Shown here one piece after another: positions 1 to 11,841 of a stretch of 11,841 bases of DNA. Position 1 is the first letter of the stretch. Every line of letters starts with the position of its first letter. The position numbers and the translations under genes were made by a program. The notes under the pieces were generated by a model. The model worked only from the letters and a program-made list of their open reading frames with translations, had not been told where the DNA came from and did not search any database. The DNA lies in NCBI GenBank assembly GCA_007127495.1, contig SKZG01000338.1:1-11841 (forward strand). The letters run 5' to 3'. Source of the DNA: Planctomycetales bacterium. Its GTDB lineage: Bacteria > Planctomycetota > Planctomycetia > Pirellulales > Thermoguttaceae.

Positions 1-768
1 AGGCGGCGTGGTGCCGTGGCGCAGCGACAAGGCCAATACGATAACCATGAATACGGCACAAGCGGCAGCCGCGGGAAGCGTCGCCACCGGCCACCGCACC
101 TCGGTGGGCTGCCCGGCCTTAGCCTCCTGCCACTCGGCCCGGACCAAGAGATAGCGCAACAGAAGCAGCAGAAAGATGAAAGCCCCGCCGAAGAGCCCGA
201 TGTGCAAGGCCTGAAATCGGGGCAGGGTGAGGTGCCCGAAAACGGGCCCCGGACCTCCGATGGCGACCTTGTAAAGATCGCTGCCGATCCAAGGTACGAG
301 TCGCAGGTAGCTGAACCGCGTCAGACTTGCCGAATAACTGTTGCGGTCCCACGCGAGCAGGTCGCCGGTGAGCAGCAGGCCCAGGGAAACACAGCCCAAG
401 AGAACGGTTGTCCAGAACACCAACTCACGCGGCTTGCGATATTCCGCGGTCACGACCAACTGGATCAGGTACAGCCCGATCAACACCACCACCAGGTTGG
501 CCGAATAGTGATGAATCGCCCGCAGGAGCCACCCGCCGGCCACAAAGGTTTCGAGGTAGTACACGCTTTCCCAGGCGGAATGGTCGCTGGGGGTGTGATA
601 GCTGAACAGGACAAACCCCGTCGTACCCTGCACGACAAGGGCAAACAGCAGCACGGCGGGAATAATGCGTTTCCAGGCGGCGCCTCGCGGCAGAGGATGC
701 TCCGCCCACAGTCGCCACAAGTCGACGGCGCCAAGCCGCTCGTCAAGCCAATGAAGGATGGTGTTCAT
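1..768 (-). CDS. Cytochrome b of a Rieske/cytb complex, apparently lacking heme bH ligands (partial, 3' end outside window)
   Basis: This is the membrane quinol-oxidising subunit that partners the Rieske protein just upstream. 256 codons are visible from ATG at 768-766, in frame to position 1 with no stop, so the C-terminal part is missing. The ATG overlaps the Rieske stop (ATGA), so translation is probably coupled. Seen: helix A about residues 35-57 with TTGF (49-52); helix B about 78-106 with GGWLLRAIHH (78-87); the KPREL loop (112-116); helix C about 117-138; AWD (139-141); helix D about 186-208; a further hydrophobic stretch about 226-248 that resembles helix E of the subunit IV half, suggesting a fused long cytochrome b. 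In by-eye alignment to cytochrome b6 the heme bL ligands are His86 and His189. The positions of the bH ligands are Tyr100 and Leu204, and there is no His elsewhere in helices B or D except His87. Position 35, Cys in b6, is Ile. The quinol-site PEWY region would lie beyond the edge. Family assignment is firm; the single-heme reading is inference from the residues. Confidence 0.9.
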   Translation of the reverse strand, partial: MNTILHWLDERLGAVDLWRLWAEHPLPRGAAWKRIIPAVLLFALVVQGTTGFVLFSYHTPSDHSAWESVYYLETFVAGGWLLRAIHHYSANLVVVLIGLYLIQLVVTAEYRKPRELVFWTTVLLGCVSLGLLLTGDLLAWDRNSYSASLTRFSYLRLVPWIGSDLYKVAIGGPGPVFGHLTLPRFQALHIGLFGGAFIFLLLLLRYLLVRAEWQEAKAGQPTEVRWPVATLPAAAACAVFMVIVLALSLRHGTTPP

Positions 769-1340
769 GATTCTGCAATCTGTTGGGATGTACCGAGAAT
801 GAAGTTTTCAAATTTGACCCAAACTTCACCGTCGCGAAGCTCCACCTCGAGCCTGTCCATGTCGCGCGGACTGGGCGAGGGGCGATCGGTGCGGCGTCCC
901 TCAAGGTCAAACCCGGCCACGTGGCACGGGCAGAAGAAACGCACCCCGTCCGGTGTCGTGTCGAGCCCGATGATACAGCCTGCATGTGGGCAAACGACCT
1001 GAAACGCCGCAACGGGGTCCTGCTGATCTCCGGTGCGCCGCAGCCACACCGCGCCAATCGGCTCGCGAGGATACCGGTTCCATGCGTCCCTCCGATCCGT
1101 GATGACCGGGAACCTGCGCGGCGTGCCGTCCTCGGGCAACGTGGCCAGCGCCGTCAGGCGGAAGAACTCGCCGCCCGGGCTCCTCTGCCGAACCGGATTC
1201 AAATAGGCCGTCAGGGCGGTCAGCGCCGGCACAACCAGCGCGAAGCCTCCGAGAACCGCTGCGCTCATTTTGGCGATGAAGCTTCGCCGCGCGTCATTCG
1301 AGCCGCTCTCCGGCGCTGGGGAAGAAACGGTAGGTTCCAT
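765..1340 (-). CDS. Rieske [2Fe-2S] iron-sulfur protein of a cytochrome bc-type complex
   Basis: This 191-residue protein would be the high-potential-branch electron acceptor of a quinol-oxidising Rieske/cytochrome b complex, anchored in the membrane with its cluster outside. Seen: a twin-arginine motif RRSFIAK (19-25-ish) followed by one hydrophobic segment (about 27-47), as in Tat-exported, uncleaved Rieske anchors. The cluster domain has CPHAGC (117-122) and CPCH (137-140), giving ligands Cys117, His119, Cys137, His140 and the disulfide pair Cys122-Cys139. A Pro-rich loop follows (153-158), and the chain ends with the usual LEVELRDGEVWVKF strand pair. Length is normal for the family. Oddity: the residues after CPCH read VAGFD, not the usual GSxYD, so the Ser and Tyr that hydrogen-bond to the cluster are Ala and Phe. 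Start ATG at 1340 is supported by AAGGAG 9 nt upstream. The gene overlaps cytochrome b by 4 bp. Confidence 0.97.
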   Translation of the reverse strand: MEPTVSSPAPESGSNDARRSFIAKMSAAVLGGFALVVPALTALTAYLNPVRQRSPGGEFFRLTALATLPEDGTPRRFPVITDRRDAWNRYPREPIGAVWLRRTGDQQDPVAAFQVVCPHAGCIIGLDTTPDGVRFFCPCHVAGFDLEGRRTDRPSPSPRDMDRLEVELRDGEVWVKFENFILGTSQQIAES

Positions 1341-1499: not shown

Positions 1500-2480
1500 T
1501 TATTGCATGATCGTTCGCATGGCGTCAAGTATCCTGTCGCGGGCTGACTGAAGTGTCCCATCAATGAAAGCCCCGGCTGCCTTTTTGTGACCGCCGCCGC
1601 CGAACTGCGCGGCAAGCTGATTGCAATCGAGGTCGCATCGGCTGCGAAAGCTGGCCTTGAACCCGCCGGTCGACTGCTCAACCAAGATGAACGCGGCCTG
1701 CGTTCCCCCAACGGACAGAAGCGTGTTGATCAAATCTTCGCTGTCGGAGGGCAGCGCGCTGGCAGCTTCGAAATCGCTTTGCTCGATCCAGGTGTAGATT
1801 AAGCGGCCGTCCAGTTCGCACGTCGCCTTAGCCAGCGTGCTGCCGGTGAGCTTCAGCCGGCCGAGCGTTTCCTCCTCGTACAAATCCTTATAGAGTTGGG
1901 AGGGGTCGGCCCCGGCGGCAACCAAGCGGGCGGCAAGTAGGAGGGTCTCCGCCGAAGTGGAACTGAAGCGAAACCAGCCGGTGTCGGTCGCCAGTGCCGC
2001 AAATGCGCATTGAGCGATCTCGGGAGTCAGGGCGACCCCCAGAGCGTCGGCGGCCTCCACGACGATTCTGCCGGTGGCCTCGGCGTGAGTGTCCTTGAAT
2101 AATTCCGCGCCCAGATCGTCGCCGCCAATGTGGTGGTCAATGACCAGCTTGCGCATCGATGTGTTGCGCACCACCTCGCCCATGGCGCCAAGTTGGGCCC
2201 AGGCTGAGGTGTCAAGAATAATCAGAACCTCGTACGGCTCGAGTTCCTTTGCGTCCATGTCGACGCCCAATTGGCGCAGCTTGCCGGTCGGATCCAAGAA
2301 ACCATAATTGGGCGGAACATCGGAGGCATTGCATATCACAACCTCCTTACCCAGTTTCTCCAGGATGGCGGCCAGCGCCAGCTCACTTCCCAGGGCGTCG
2401 CAGTCGGGCCGTACGTGCGAGGTGAGCGCAAACCGCCGGCTCCCACTGACAATTTCTGCAAAACGCGACCAATCAGGCAT
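1500..2480 (-). CDS. nrnA: DHH/DHHA1-family phosphoesterase, NrnA-type (nanoRNase / pAp phosphatase)
   Basis: This is a 326-residue cytoplasmic metal-dependent phosphoesterase. Family members degrade very short RNA oligonucleotides and dephosphorylate 3'-phosphoadenosine 5'-phosphate. Seen: motif I SHVRPDCDALGS (21-32; His22, Asp26, Asp28), a second Asp in LIILDTS (Asp90), the DHH signature VIDHH (113-117), ATDTGWF (164-170; Asp166), and a C-terminal DHHA1 domain with FRSR (278-281) and the GGGGHKKAAG glycine loop (294-303). All expected metal and substrate motifs are present, and the length is typical. The start ATG at 2480 lies 11 bp after the ribF stop, so the two are almost certainly co-transcribed. 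In many bacteria nrnA sits in the rbfA-nrnA-truB-ribF neighbourhood, which supports the subfamily call. Related DHH enzymes with other oligonucleotide or cyclic-dinucleotide substrates cannot be excluded from sequence alone. Confidence 0.92.
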   Translation of the reverse strand: MPDWSRFAEIVSGSRRFALTSHVRPDCDALGSELALAAILEKLGKEVVICNASDVPPNYGFLDPTGKLRQLGVDMDAKELEPYEVLIILDTSAWAQLGAMGEVVRNTSMRKLVIDHHIGGDDLGAELFKDTHAEATGRIVVEAADALGVALTPEIAQCAFAALATDTGWFRFSSTSAETLLLAARLVAAGADPSQLYKDLYEEETLGRLKLTGSTLAKATCELDGRLIYTWIEQSDFEAASALPSDSEDLINTLLSVGGTQAAFILVEQSTGGFKASFRSRCDLDCNQLAAQFGGGGHKKAAGAFIDGTLQSARDRILDAMRTIMQ

Positions 2481-2491
2481 GGTGTTTCCGG

Positions 2492-3457
2492 TTACGTCTG
2501 TAAGGCTCCGTCCTGTTCGCTCGCGCGCTCGGCAACGCGGCGGGTCGCAAGAACATCGCGGTCCATCTGGGCGATCAGTTCGGCGGGAGTTGTGAAACGC
2601 ACAATGTCCCGCAAACGCGCCAAGAAGTCAACCTGGACCTGCTGCCCGTAAAGGTCGCCGTCGAAATCGATCAAATACGCTTCAGCCTTCATCGCGGCGT
2701 CGCCAAAGGTGGGGTTGGGGCCCAGGCTGAGCGCCGTGGCCCAGCTTCCTTCTTGAGTATGCGCGAAGCCGGCGTAAATGCCTTCACGTGGTAGAAGGGT
2801 ATCAATGCACTCCAGATTAGCTGTCGGATACCCCAGCGTGGCGCCTCGCGAGGCGCCACGGACCACTCGGCCGCGAATTCGATACGCCCGAGTGAGTAAG
2901 CGATTGGCCGCCCCGACGTCGCCCCCCGCAATCAGACGCCGCACGCGTGAACTGGAGATGGGTTCGTCCTCGAACAAAACGGGAGCCACCACCTCAATCG
3001 GCGTATCGGCGTCAGCGCAAAATTGCCGTAACAATTCGGTATTGCCGGACCGACCGCAGCCGAAATGGAAGTCCGGTCCCTCGACCATTGCACGTGCGGC
3101 CAGGCCTTTGCGAACAATTCGCGAAAAAAATTCCGAGGGCGAAAGGTTGAGTAGTTCCCGGCTGGTCGGATAGGCCACGACAGCGTCGACGCCCAGCGCG
3201 GCAAGCATCTCCGCTTTGCGTTCCGTCCAGCACAGCGGCGCGGGCGCAGCCTCGGGGCGAAGTAACTTGGCCGGGTGCGGGTCAAAAGTAAAGGCGATCG
3301 CCGGGCCCCCGCATCTGCCGGCCCATGCGACAAGCCGCTCGATCAGGTGGGCATGCCCGCGATGCACGCCGTCGAAGTTGCCGATGGAAACGGCTCCGCC
3401 CCGAAATTCGACGGGTAGCGAGTTGAGGTCGTAGGTCAGATACACGGCTGAGAACAC
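2492..3457 (-). CDS. ribF: Bifunctional riboflavin kinase / FAD synthetase
   Basis: This cytoplasmic enzyme of 321 residues phosphorylates riboflavin to FMN and adenylylates FMN to FAD. Seen, N-terminal FAD synthetase (nucleotidyltransferase) domain: GNFDGVHRGH (26-35), FTFDPHP (56-62), GPDFHFGCGRSG (127-138) and ISSSRVR (167-173). Seen, C-terminal riboflavin kinase domain: GYPTANL (209-215), LGPNPTFGD (245-253) and a strand with Glu258/Glu259-region acid followed by FDGDLYG (265-271). Both domains look intact and the length is normal. The start is uncertain: GTG at 3457 has no clear ribosome binding site, and a second GTG lies four codons in (3445). The gene follows the DUF4912 gene by 56 bp and precedes nrnA by 11 bp on the same strand. 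Confidence 0.97.
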   Translation of the reverse strand: MFSAVYLTYDLNSLPVEFRGGAVSIGNFDGVHRGHAHLIERLVAWAGRCGGPAIAFTFDPHPAKLLRPEAAPAPLCWTERKAEMLAALGVDAVVAYPTSRELLNLSPSEFFSRIVRKGLAARAMVEGPDFHFGCGRSGNTELLRQFCADADTPIEVVAPVLFEDEPISSSRVRRLIAGGDVGAANRLLTRAYRIRGRVVRGASRGATLGYPTANLECIDTLLPREGIYAGFAHTQEGSWATALSLGPNPTFGDAAMKAEAYLIDFDGDLYGQQVQVDFLARLRDIVRFTTPAELIAQMDRDVLATRRVAERASEQDGALQT

Positions 3458-7776: not shown

Positions 7777-7814
7777 GTAACGCGGCAGTAGTTCTGCCGA
7801 CATCCAACCGTTAC
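7777..7814. terminator. Dyad between convergent genes, possible bidirectional terminator
   Basis: GTAACG (7777-7782) pairs with CGTTAC (7809-7814), and inside it CGGCAG (7783-7788) pairs perfectly with CTGCCG (7794-7799) across a 5-nt loop, with a 9-nt bulge on one side. The outer stem includes the stop codon of the leftward PII-like gene (7813-7811). It lies where the YfhO-like gene and the efflux operon converge. There is no T-run on either side, so this is not a classical intrinsic terminator; the structure is clear, the role is inferred. Confidence 0.4.
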
Positions 7815-8101
7815 AGACGGCGTTCGATGGGCAGCACCAGCGCTTGCAGGTGGCGGTGGGCCGGCTTGGCGTCGCGGAAGCGGCGCAGCTCGTCGAGGAC
7901 GGCATCGAGAGTGTCTTCGGGCACCTGCGCGTGGACCACGCTGCTGTTGCCGGGAAATACTTGGCTGCCGAAGTGCTTCCCTTCGGCGTCCTTTCCCTCC
8001 ATCATTCGGAAGCGGACGTAATCTGCGATGCCGTGCCGGTCGAGAATGTCCTCGATGGCCTCGGTATATTCAAAGTGAAATGTAATGGCGACGAGCTTCA
8101 T
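7811..8101 (-). CDS. Small PII-like protein coupled to the RND pump (resembles PG0541-type transporter-associated family)
   Basis: This is a 96-residue protein with the size and alternating strand/helix pattern of the PII/ferredoxin-like fold: strand MKLVAITF, helix 12-22 (EAIEDILDRHG), a central loop about 34-48 (MMEGKDAEGKHFGS), strand SSVVHAQV (53-60), helix 62-76, and a final strand LQALVLPIE (85-93). The GxHFGSxVFPG loop and the ending resemble small transporter-associated proteins encoded next to RND pumps, from memory. A role as ligand-sensing regulator or trimeric partner of the pump is inference. The start ATG 8101 overlaps the pump stop (ATGA), implying translational coupling. The reading frame remains open upstream to 8527, but that part lies antisense-free inside the pump gene in another frame and has no family resemblance, so the short start is chosen. 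Confidence 0.82.
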   Translation of the reverse strand: MKLVAITFHFEYTEAIEDILDRHGIADYVRFRMMEGKDAEGKHFGSQVFPGNSSVVHAQVPEDTLDAVLDELRRFRDAKPAHRHLQALVLPIERRL

Positions 8102-11100
8102 CCGGCGGTCGGCTCCGCGGCGAGGTTCGATTGGCTCGGCGAGGCGGTCTGTCCCGCAGGCCGGCCGACCAGGGCCGCCTGCGCCTGGGCGACGAGCGTG
8201 TACATGACCGGAATCACCACGAGGGTCAGCGCCGTCGAGGTGAGCATGCCCCCGGCCACCGAAACGCCCAGCGGCATGCGGGCCTCGCCGCCGGCGCCGA
8301 AGCCCGTGGCGATGGGCATCATACCGAGGATTGTCGAAACGGCGGTCATCAAGACTGGGCGGAAGCGGACCGCCGCCGCCTCCTTCGCCGCCGTGAAGGG
8401 GTCGCGTCCGCGAGCCACCAGGATATTGGTATAGTCGACCACGAGAATCGAGTTCTTCGTGACCAGCCCCATGAGCATGATGAGCCCGATGAATGCATAC
8501 ACGTTGAACGAAAGCCCCAGCAGCCACAGTCCTCCAAAAGCCCCAATGGTGGCCAGCGGCAGGGCCGCCATGATCGTGAAGGGGTGGAGGAACGACTCGA
8601 ACTGCGCCGCCAGTACGAGGTAGATGAACACAATCGAGAATACGACAGTAATGGAAAGATAGTAGAACGATTCCTCAAAGATTTGCGAGAGACCGGTCAG
8701 TTCGTGGTCAGTCCCCGGGGGAAGCTCCCGCTCGATGTATTCCTCGAGCCGCGCGACAGCCTCACCCAGCGCCACTCCGGGCGGCACCTGCGAGGAGATC
8801 GTCGCCGAACGCATGCGGTTGTAGCGGTGGATCTGGCTTGGGCCAATCGTCTCATCGAGGTCCACCAGGTTGTCCAGCGAGACGAGCATCCCTTCCGGCC
8901 CGCGGATGTAGATATCGCGCAGTGCGGCCGGATTCATCGTCCCGCGGCCGGTCGCCTCGGTAATCACGTCGTAGCGCTCGGCGTTGCGTTCAATGGTGGA
9001 AATGGTCGGGCCGCCGAACAGGAATCGCATGGTGTTGGAAATATCGGCTACGGAAATACCCATCTGCGACGCCTTGTCGCGATGGATATTCACGTCAACC
9101 TGGGGGTTATTCAATTCGAGGTTCGTCCGTACGCCCACGTACCATTCCGGCTGGGCACGCATCCAGTCCATCACCTGTTCCTGCTGGCGGGCAAGCGTTT
9201 CGAGGTCAGGGTGCTTCAAGACCACCTCGACCGGCGCGCCGCCGACGCCGGCCGGATTCATTTCCAATACGAACGCCCGGCCGGCCGGGATGGCGTTCAA
9301 CCGCACCCGAAGCCTCTGCATCACCTCCGTCTGGTGCAGCTCGCGCTCCTGCCGCGGGGTGAGGCGCACAAAAGCCATTCCAGTGTTTGGCTGCCCCGGC
9401 CCGGCTCGGGTCAGGCCCATGGCCAGAAACTGGTGTCGCACTTCGGGCGTTTCGGCCAGCACCTCCTCGATTTGGCGGGCGAAGGCGTCGGTCTCGGCGA
9501 GGGTCGCGCCCTGCGGCGTCTCGAAGACGAGCATGAAGGCGTTGCGGTCTTCCTCGGCGGCGAACTCGCGTGGGATGTTGGCCAGCGCCAACATTCCGGC
9601 CCCGAAGGCCGCCACGCCCAGAAGCACGGTCAACCACCGCGCGCGAAACGCCCCCGCCAGCACCTTCCCGTACACCCATTCAATGGCTCGGAACACCTGC
9701 TCGGACAAGCGGAAAGCGGGGCCATGCCGCTCCGGCACTCGCAGCAACCGGGAGCACAGCATGGGGGTGAGAGTCAACGCTACGAAAGTGGACGCGAACA
9801 CGGTAATCGCGACCGTGAGACCGAATTCCATGAAGAAGCGCCCGATCAGCCCGCCGGTGAACGCAACGGGAATGAACACGGCGCCCAGCGCCAGCGTATT
9901 GGCCAGGGCGGGAAAGGCCACTTCGGTGGTTCCGACGCGGGCGGCCGGCTCCGCTTCGGCCCCTTCCTCCATGTGCAGGTAACACCGCTCCAGTACGACG
10001 ATCGCGTCGTCAATCACGATGCCGATGACCAGGATCAGCGCCAACATGGTCAGGACGTTGATGCTGAACCCGAGCATGCTGATGCCCGCCAGGCCGATCA
10101 GCAGTGAGGTGGGAATGGCTAGCAGCGTGATGATGGTTCCGCGCCCGCTTCGCAGAAACGCCAGCACGACGAACATTACCAAGGCGGTGGCGATGAAGAT
10201 GGTCAGCAAGAGGTCCCGGATGCTCTCCTGAATGTACTCGGAGTTGTCGGTGGCGATGGTGTAGCGCAGCCCGGGCGGGAAGTCTGCGCCGATTTCGGCC
10301 ATCCGCCGGTGCAGCGACGCGGCCAACTCGACGGTGTTGGCGTCAGCCTGCTTGATCACGCCCAGGCCCACGGCGGTCTCGCCGCGAAAGCGGGCGCGCT
10401 GGCGGTCGTCCTCCACGCCATCGACGACCTCTCCGATGTCGCGAATACGAACTGGGGCTCCGTTGCGGTATGCAACCACCAGTTGGTTCATCGGCTCGGC
10501 TTCGGAAAACTGTCCGCGCGTTTGGATGAGGAACTCGCGCCGCTCTCCCTCGACGCGGCCGGAGGGGATATCGGCATTGTTGATCTGTACGGTGCGAACG
10601 ACGTCCTGGACGGTAAGCTGGTGGGCCGCCAACCGGGCCGCGTCCATGCGGACGCGAACGGCGTACTTGCGCCGTCCCCCAACTCGAATCTGCCCCACGC
10701 CGCGCAGCGTCTCCAACTGCTGCTTCAGCACGTTCTCGGCGTATTCCGTCATGCGGACGGCGTCCCAGCGTTCATCGCCGGTGAGCGTGATCCACATGAT
10801 CGCCTGGGCGCCGAGTTCCAGCTTCCGCACGATGGGCGACTCGATATCGTCGGGCAGCAGCCGCTGGGCTCGTTCCACCGCGTCGCGCACGTCCTGCGCA
10901 GCCACGTCGATATCGCGCCACAGTTCGAACTCGGCCGTGATGGTGGCCACCTGCTCCATCGCGGTCGAACTAAGAGTTCGCAGCCCCTCGATGGTGTTGA
11001 TCTCGGCTTCGAGCGGGTCGATGATTTCCGACTCGATCACCCCGGGGGCCGCGCCGGCCAGCACCACGTTGACACTGACAATCGGAAACTCGACGTCCGG

Positions 11101-11208
11101 ATCCTGCTGTACCGGCATCTGCACGTAGCCGTAGCCGCCAAAGATGGCGAGCACCGTGAAGACCACGATCGTCATCACCGGACGGCGGATACAGAAGTTC
11201 CAAATCAC
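8098..11208 (-). CDS. RND efflux pump, inner-membrane transporter (AcrB/MexB-like, HAE type)
   Basis: This is a complete 1036-residue proton-driven pump subunit, normal in length for the family. With a periplasmic adaptor and an outer-membrane channel it would export hydrophobic or amphiphilic compounds. Seen: N-terminal WNFCIRRPV (3-11) and the first membrane helix (about 9-28); a first periplasmic porter domain (about 35-330); helices 2-6 (about 331-490) with the proton-relay GIVIDDAIVVLER (396-408; Asp400, Asp401); a seventh helix (about 523-543); a second periplasmic domain (about 548-845); helices 8-12 (about 850-1005) with GLVTKNSILVVDYTN (914-928; Lys918). The TM4 DD and TM10 TKN signatures point to HAE pumps and not heavy-metal (HME) pumps. 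Start GTG 11208 overlaps the adaptor stop (GTGA), with GAGGA about 9 nt upstream. The stop overlaps the PII-like gene start. No channel gene is in view. Substrate unknown. Confidence 0.97.
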   Translation of the reverse strand: MIWNFCIRRPVMTIVVFTVLAIFGGYGYVQMPVQQDPDVEFPIVSVNVVLAGAAPGVIESEIIDPLEAEINTIEGLRTLSSTAMEQVATITAEFELWRDIDVAAQDVRDAVERAQRLLPDDIESPIVRKLELGAQAIMWITLTGDERWDAVRMTEYAENVLKQQLETLRGVGQIRVGGRRKYAVRVRMDAARLAAHQLTVQDVVRTVQINNADIPSGRVEGERREFLIQTRGQFSEAEPMNQLVVAYRNGAPVRIRDIGEVVDGVEDDRQRARFRGETAVGLGVIKQADANTVELAASLHRRMAEIGADFPPGLRYTIATDNSEYIQESIRDLLLTIFIATALVMFVVLAFLRSGRGTIITLLAIPTSLLIGLAGISMLGFSINVLTMLALILVIGIVIDDAIVVLERCYLHMEEGAEAEPAARVGTTEVAFPALANTLALGAVFIPVAFTGGLIGRFFMEFGLTVAITVFASTFVALTLTPMLCSRLLRVPERHGPAFRLSEQVFRAIEWVYGKVLAGAFRARWLTVLLGVAAFGAGMLALANIPREFAAEEDRNAFMLVFETPQGATLAETDAFARQIEEVLAETPEVRHQFLAMGLTRAGPGQPNTGMAFVRLTPRQERELHQTEVMQRLRVRLNAIPAGRAFVLEMNPAGVGGAPVEVVLKHPDLETLARQQEQVMDWMRAQPEWYVGVRTNLELNNPQVDVNIHRDKASQMGISVADISNTMRFLFGGPTISTIERNAERYDVITEATGRGTMNPAALRDIYIRGPEGMLVSLDNLVDLDETIGPSQIHRYNRMRSATISSQVPPGVALGEAVARLEEYIERELPPGTDHELTGLSQIFEESFYYLSITVVFSIVFIYLVLAAQFESFLHPFTIMAALPLATIGAFGGLWLLGLSFNVYAFIGLIMLMGLVTKNSILVVDYTNILVARGRDPFTAAKEAAAVRFRPVLMTAVSTILGMMPIATGFGAGGEARMPLGVSVAGGMLTSTALTLVVIPVMYTLVAQAQAALVGRPAGQTASPSQSNLAAEPTAG

Positions 11209-11841
11209 CGCTTTCGTTCCTCACTCGGATGTTCCGCTGGAGAATCCTCCGCTGCGATGACCGGATGGCCGGGGCTGAGTCGCAGGTGCCCTTCGCGGAC
11301 CACCTGCTCACCGACTGTCAGGCCGTCAAGGATTTCCACCAGTCCCTCGTATCGCAATCCCGTCGACACCTCCCGAGATGCGGCAACGCCGTCCTCGACC
11401 ACAAACACCATGTAGCCGCGCCGCGTAGCCACCAGCGCGACGTCGGGAATGACAGGGCGATCCTCCCGGCGGCCCACCGTGACCGACGCCGTGGCGAAGA
11501 GGCCCGGCTTCAGTTCATGTTTCTCGTTCGGGATCAGCGCCTTCACGAGGAACTGGCGGGTGGAGGGGTCGATCGCCGGGCTGACAAACCCCACCGCGCC
11601 TTCGAACGCCCGGTCGGGATACGCGGCCACCGTGACGCCCACCCGTTGCCCCGGCCGTACGCGGGCGAGGTGCCGCTCGGGCAACCAGAAGTTCATTTCC
11701 AGGGGGTCGATCTGATAGAGCTTCGCCAGCATGCGCCCCACCGTCACGTGTGCGCCCCGATCCACTTCGCGGTGCGACAGGACGCCGCTGAAGGGGGCCA
11801 GGATGCGCATGTCCTCCAGTTCCCGCTCGATGAGCGAAAGC
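11205..11841 (-). CDS. RND membrane fusion protein / periplasmic adaptor (partial, 5' end outside window)
   Basis: This is the C-terminal 212 codons of a HlyD/AcrA-type adaptor that would link the RND pump to an outer-membrane channel. The frame is open to the right edge (first whole codon at 11840), reading LSLIERELEDMRILAPFSGV, which is the end of the coiled-coil hairpin followed by the second half of the lipoyl domain. The Met at 11810 is therefore internal and not a start. After that come a beta-barrel region (QIDPLEMNFWLPE, then GQRVGVTV and the VGFVSPAIDPSTRQF stretch), the LKPGLFATASV turn and a membrane-proximal domain ending with GEQVVREGHLRL. The extreme C-terminus is charged (EERKR) and its stop overlaps the pump start by the GTGA arrangement. 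Signal peptide and N-terminal lipoyl half would lie outside the window. Confidence 0.95.
   Translation of the reverse strand, partial: LSLIERELEDMRILAPFSGVLSHREVDRGAHVTVGRMLAKLYQIDPLEMNFWLPERHLARVRPGQRVGVTVAAYPDRAFEGAVGFVSPAIDPSTRQFLVKALIPNEKHELKPGLFATASVTVGRREDRPVIPDVALVATRRGYMVFVVEDGVAASREVSTGLRYEGLVEILDGLTVGEQVVREGHLRLSPGHPVIAAEDSPAEHPSEERKR

Follow-up and report, generated by a model that had tools for sequence, protein, structure and literature searches.

The locus raises the question whether a natural cytochrome b can keep the heme on one side of the membrane and do without the other. The window, that is, the whole stretch of 11,841 bp analysed here, is the entire contig SKZG01000338.1 of a planctomycete of the family Thermoguttaceae, from an assembly of 592 contigs that is 84% complete. 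Its positions 1..768 (minus strand) encode the first 256 residues of a cytochrome b, comprising the petB-like half and helix E; the frame leaves the contig end at position 1. Pfam and the predicted structure assign this protein to the cytochrome b fold and sequence family. The initial annotation held that the protein retains both ligands of heme bL and has lost both ligands of heme bH. The ORF, its strand, coordinates and codons are as it described.

The gene and its surroundings

The Rieske gene (765..1340, minus strand; Pfam Rieske, E = 1.2e-7) precedes the cytochrome b gene, and the two overlap by four bases, ATGA, at the cytochrome b start. All four cluster ligands, two Cys and two His, are present in the motif CPHAGC...CPCHVA (915..992, minus strand, positions counted manually along the translation). 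The window protein ends at residue 256; the PEW motif and the c hemes are known from its relatives only. A search of the rest of this assembly (84% complete) did not recover its C-terminal half. The source genome encodes a second cytochrome b (L001/L061, contig C325) with His at all four ligand positions and, as judged by eye, with a Rieske gene of its own.

Upstream of the Rieske gene, positions 1500-3457 carry an NrnA-like DHH phosphatase and RibF, and by eye these neighbours recur at many related loci. An AcrB-family RND efflux pump and an HlyD-type adaptor occupy positions 8098-11810; the adjacent 96-residue ORF (7811-8101) has no Pfam match.

Heme ligand columns

The four ligand columns were tabulated over a broad cytochrome b set, as the annotation had proposed. 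The set comprises 176 rows of the clade to which the window protein belongs (56 from loci and 120 proteins listed out of 1724 found; 172 are distinct over the first 250 residues, with duplicate genes such as L107/L124 and P0002/L063) and 40 controls, namely 19 orthologous sister-family fusions and a selection of 21 other cytochromes b chosen from the same set of genomes, the second cytochrome b of the source genome among them.

The heme bL ligands are His86 (511..513) and His189 (202..204), both on the minus strand, as are all residues below; each column is His in 176/176 clade rows and in 40/40 controls. The heme bH columns of the window hold Tyr100 (469..471) and Leu204 (157..159), and each is His in all 40 controls. 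Among the clade rows, column 100 is Tyr in 141 and His in three; column 204 is His in 93, Arg in 32, Trp in 24, Asn in 18 and Tyr in five. In this alignment no clade row has both bH histidines and 80/176 have neither. All four columns are His in 19/19 sister-family fusions and in 21/21 other cytochromes b. Both halves of the claim are thus borne out, the loss of the bH pair as well as the retention of the bL pair.

Alignment details do not change this result. HMMER comparison with cytochrome b6 pairs Tyr100 with the histidine of b6. For helix D, the HMMER alignment of the single sequence introduces a one-residue gap that sets Arg205 opposite the b6 histidine; the family alignment is gap-free and sets Leu204 there. 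Hence neither Tyr100 nor the Arg205/Leu204 position yields the His by which a profile alignment could have contradicted the annotation. A general misalignment was rejected, since the 40 controls have His at all four columns in the same alignment. A shifted substitute His in helix B or D was also rejected: none is conserved in the 176 clade rows, in agreement with the annotation, which had seen none in register. Stray histidines of these helices occur at about residue 91 in 34/176 rows, at 103 in 9/176 and at 107 in 19/176.

Other changes on the n side

The ligands are not the only columns of the bH half that differ. Pro37 (658..660) stands at a helix A position that is Gly in 40/40 controls, in none of the 56 clade rows from loci (one of which, L109, begins near residue 67, its columns 37 and 51 being meaningless) and in none of the 120 listed proteins. 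Thr121 (406..408) occupies a helix C position that is Gly in 40/40 controls and in 3/176 clade rows. The bc1 counterparts of Gly37 and Gly121 presumably pack against the bH porphyrin.

The quinone-reducing Qi site is altered as well. Ala233 (70..72) corresponds to Asp252 of Rhodobacter capsulatus, a column with Asp in only 10/176 clade rows. It is Asp in 18/18 sister fusions that have a letter there; the 21 other cytochromes b have Asp in nine, Glu in eight, Asn in one and a gap in three. The correspondence follows HMMER mapping, by which Lys231/Asp232 of the sister fusion L025 equal R. capsulatus Lys251/Asp252 and its Tyr136 equals Tyr147, the numbers being counted from the alignment. In one study, R. 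capsulatus D252A grows very weakly, D252 mutants are impaired, and in K251M/D252 double mutants hemes b are not re-oxidised on the millisecond scale (PMC5001787).

Among the columns universal in the controls, the losses in the clade fall on the n side, at Gly37, His100, Gly121, Pro194, Gly212 and, in part, His204. The retained ones are Gly51, Gly79, Arg83, His86, Gly135, His189 and the PEW Trp. From the missing ligands, heme bH seems to be absent from the clade enzyme, and it seems that both the heme and the quinone site of one membrane side have been lost. Three observations speak against a loss of the bH side: 93/176 rows keep His204, the Qi Asp persists in 10/176, and conservation of the n-side PRE loop (113-115) is 98–100% in the clade.

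Tyr100 is present in 91/93 rows with His204 versus 50/83 rows without it (Fisher p = 7e-11, relatedness ignored). Because Tyr100 tracks His204 tightly, and more loosely once His204 is gone, the covariation suggests that the pair has some role, perhaps a hydrogen bond or ligation, possibly of a Tyr/His heme. A heme might accordingly still sit at the bH place in the His204 members, held together with Tyr100 or water, the true loss being confined to members like the window; His-Lys ligation of bH is functional in R. capsulatus (PMC4807273). We consider this distinctly unlikely. Gly37 is absent from all 176 clade rows and Gly121 from 173, and just 10 of the 93 His204 rows keep the Qi Asp; moreover, such a heme would be inapplicable to the window, which has no His204. 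The cultured Thermogutta terrifontis combines Thr100 and His204 with Leu37 and Arg121.

The clade and the probable order of losses

A scan of contigs with two clade-derived patterns, which misses relatives without those patterns, yielded 48 loci, all from the Planctomycetota except L064. The latter is labelled Nealsonbacteria, and its sequence is that of a Thermoguttaceae genome (G018). L108, labelled Blastopirellula marina, clusters with T. terrifontis in the phylogeny. Of 37 genomes of the family, the source genome among them, 26 encode a close homologue (E = 8.8e-39 or better).

In a tree from which seven trait columns were left out, the clade is a single branch (support 100/100), and so are the 19 sister fusions (98/93). 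By these sequences, the gene belongs to one well-supported clade within the Thermoguttaceae (Planctomycetota, order Pirellulales), which includes T. terrifontis R1. Column 204 changed at least five times inside the clade. Read most simply, the tree places the loss of the first bH ligand at the base of the clade and the loss of the second later, several times. The rows with neither ligand (80/176) include whole subclades.

In the window, the replacement of His204 by Leu is private to a long branch, and its closest neighbours in the tree have His204. The window gene could be regarded as decaying, its last bH ligand lost under relaxed selection in that lineage. Its branch length is 0.98 against 0.25 for the neighbour, it retains 87% of the 55 columns conserved in the clade, where the median row retains 98% (3/176 rows are lower), and two genomes of the same genus (86% and 72% complete) have no detected cytochrome b. 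However, the frame is open, the overlapping Rieske gene is undamaged, and the protein still has the bL ligands, Arg83, Asp136 and Arg151; both bH ligands are missing from entire subclades besides; and one of the same-genus genomes, G002, has a partial Rieske match, so that its copy may merely be unassembled. Decay is thus highly unlikely to account for the window gene.

The Qo side and the Rieske protein

On the quinol-oxidising side, the window has Asp136 (361..363) where R. capsulatus has Tyr147, which belongs to the Qo proton network (PMC10583091). The column is Asp in 176/176 clade rows, a count biased by the fact that the rows were picked by Gly135-Asp136 (TGD); it is Tyr in 19/19 sister fusions and in 12/21 other cytochromes b. 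A fairer count is given by the companion residue Arg151 (316..318), Arg in 176/176 clade rows and in 0/19 sister fusions, all of which have Ala; the 21 others have Gly in 17, Ala in three and Glu in one.

The Qo motif PEW(Y) has P in 175, E in 171, W in 175 and the final Tyr in only four of the 176 clade rows, Ala, Ser or Phe replacing that Tyr in most. The motif is complete in all 17 sister fusions with a letter there. As read from these columns, the Qo side of the clade enzyme is retained yet remodelled.

The Rieske protein has changed too. In the window, Ala replaces the Ser of CHGS-type Rieske proteins. This Ser is found in 15/17 sister fusions versus 0/48 clade members, counts that omit the loci with no motif match (8/56 clade, 2/19 sister and 7/21 other loci). 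It does not mark heme bH in general, since only 5/14 Rieske proteins found next to other cytochromes b with bH have it. In yeast, loss of this Ser cuts the potential of the Rieske protein by 130 mV (PMC12954380). The loss would fit a non-bifurcating enzyme, the argument being that without bifurcation a low-potential bL need not be balanced by a strongly oxidising cluster.

L064, one of the eight omitted clade loci, has a Rieske protein with an altered motif. Encoded on the same contig at L037:2404-3012, it reads CPHLGG...CPLH, in which both disulfide cysteines are absent and the four cluster ligands kept. At six loci (L050, L051, L058, L096, L103 and L104) no Rieske motif was found near the cytochrome b gene. 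Absence of the Rieske protein from a subclade was rejected for the genomes G010, G034 and G011, each of which has a Rieske-like match on another contig, partial in G011.

Fusion architecture and a possible exit for the electron

Full-length relatives are fusions of about 600 to 1080 residues, in which the petB-like half is followed by a petD-like part with PEW and then by C..CH motifs, two in most and four in a subset. The four-motif fusions, of about 860 to 920 residues, are L071, L077, L100, L102, L108 and the T. terrifontis protein (L052). The Pfam family Cytochrom_B_C matches the sister fusion L025 (E = 1.7e-5); the clade member L063 has no match, but it shows the PEW stretch when aligned.

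This architecture bears on the fate of the second electron. The annotation had left two options, another partner for the low-potential electron, perhaps encoded beyond position 1, or quinol oxidation without bifurcation. The data lean to the latter, and the former was not seen. What follows position 1 would not be a new partner, because the relatives show continuation of the same polypeptide, the petD-like part and c hemes, and so do the bH-containing sisters. No downstream gene family occurs at more than 8/53 loci, and on this count a new low-potential partner next to the gene was rejected. Of the 53 loci, 47 have any downstream ORF and 12 offer less than 600 bases of downstream sequence; some of the clustered ORFs were spurious antisense frames.

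The fused hemes themselves might serve as the exit, the electrons still being split and the bL electron leaving on the p side to a fused c heme or another periplasmic carrier. The universal retention of the bL ligands and the presence of two c-heme motifs in most full-length relatives, and of four in some, would agree with it. Yet the same two motifs occur in the bH-containing sister enzymes and hence are no new exit, and the neighbourhoods just described hold no further gene family at more than 8/53 loci. We regard such an exit as unlikely. Electron transfer to bH of the other monomer was dismissed by reasoning: it is impossible in a homodimer without bH.

A proposed mechanism without bifurcation

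We favour, with a probability of roughly 60%, the reading that the clade enzyme acts as a non-bifurcating menaquinol:cytochrome c oxidoreductase. Its basis in the sequences is that the bH ligands, the glycines and the Qi Asp are lost, that the bL ligands, the Qo PEW and the Rieske ligands are kept, and that the relatives carry fused c hemes. The Qo site would oxidise menaquinol and hand the first electron to the Rieske cluster. The second would be held on heme bL, with crossing of the membrane impossible, and would go back, by way of the quinone at Qo, to the Rieske cluster at its next visit. Both electrons would then pass to the fused c hemes and on to a periplasmic acceptor, and the two protons would be released on the p side. 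In this scheme we infer the absence of bH, the delivery of both electrons to the p side, the storage role of bL, and the identity of both the quinone and the acceptor.

The energy-saving Q cycle is probably no longer run by this enzyme. The annotation, too, had not expected a normal Q cycle, a point strengthened now that two bH-side glycines and the Qi Asp are also seen to be lost. In R. capsulatus, an engineered enzyme that lacks bH can still reduce bL but shows no antimycin-sensitive phase (PMC4330944). Against the non-bifurcating route stands the presence of the bL ligands in all 176 rows, though a simple route of this kind has no obvious need of bL.

On a broader view, we give slightly better than even odds to the Q cycle having been abandoned in one enzyme by stepwise dismantling of its n-side half and retuning of the p side, the latter through Asp/Arg by the Qo site and a lower-potential Rieske protein. 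Part of this reading, held with the same slight preference, is that the steps survive in living species, from His/His outside the clade through Tyr/His to neither ligand.

Comparison with known systems

The closest comparison is with the 19 other cytochrome b-c fusions of Pirellulales families. They likewise have the petD-like part and c-heme motifs fused, and in 17/19 an upstream Rieske gene of the same CPH.GC type; unlike the clade, they have His100, His204, Gly37 and Gly121 in 19/19, the Qi Asp in 18/18, and TGY. The clade shares with cytochromes bc1 and b6f the cytochrome b fold, the bL ligands, the Rieske ligands and, in the relatives of the window protein, the Qo PEW. It differs from them in lacking both bH ligands together, the bH-side glycines and the Qi Asp, and in having Asp at the Tyr147 position.

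The R. capsulatus bH knock-out H212N resembles the clade in performing Qo and bL reduction without bH (PMC4330944, PMC4807273). However, it is a laboratory mutant in one ligand, whereas the clade is natural and much of its n side is changed. A growth-selected revertant of H212N regained a ligand, Lys, as the same two sources have it. The Rieske/cytochrome b complexes of the anammox bacterium Kuenenia are also planctomycete enzymes for which an unusual use of low-potential electrons was proposed; in contrast to the clade, they are discussed with both b hemes and NAD(P) oxidoreductase subunits (PMC12954380). Complex III of T. terrifontis was assigned to THTE_1510-1512, beside nitrate reductase genes, and heme ligands are unmentioned in the available part of that account (PMC5673643).

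A search by title and abstract in full-text literature, mostly non-subscription, found no natural cytochrome b without heme bH. If the present reading is true, a natural clade shows that the two halves of cytochrome b are separable in evolution, and it offers a natural test of Qo quinol oxidation without the second heme, short circuits and oxygen radicals included. As T. terrifontis is cultured, the heme content and proton stoichiometry are directly measurable.

Genome setting

Among the 26 genomes with the gene, ten have another cytochrome b that passes the Pfam cut-off, one has a fragment (G021) and 15 have none that passes, two of the 15 showing weak matches below it. A COX1-family heme-copper oxidase had no match in 13 of these 15 sole-cytochrome-b genomes, absences that are weak, as the assemblies are mostly incomplete; G013, among the 13, encodes an ordinary cytochrome bd.

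A divergent homologue of CydA, subunit I of cytochrome bd, is found in 21/37 genomes of the family and in 0/23 genomes of the sister families. That it accepts electrons from the clade enzyme is a guess, because it also occurs in family members without that enzyme. In nine stretches (L145:1215-3833 and L146-L153) the CydA-like ORF carries one C..CH, the Pfam check covering L145. In six of these (L145, L147, L150, L151, L152 and L153) it is adjoined by an ORF of 355 to 510 residues with several hydrophobic helices.
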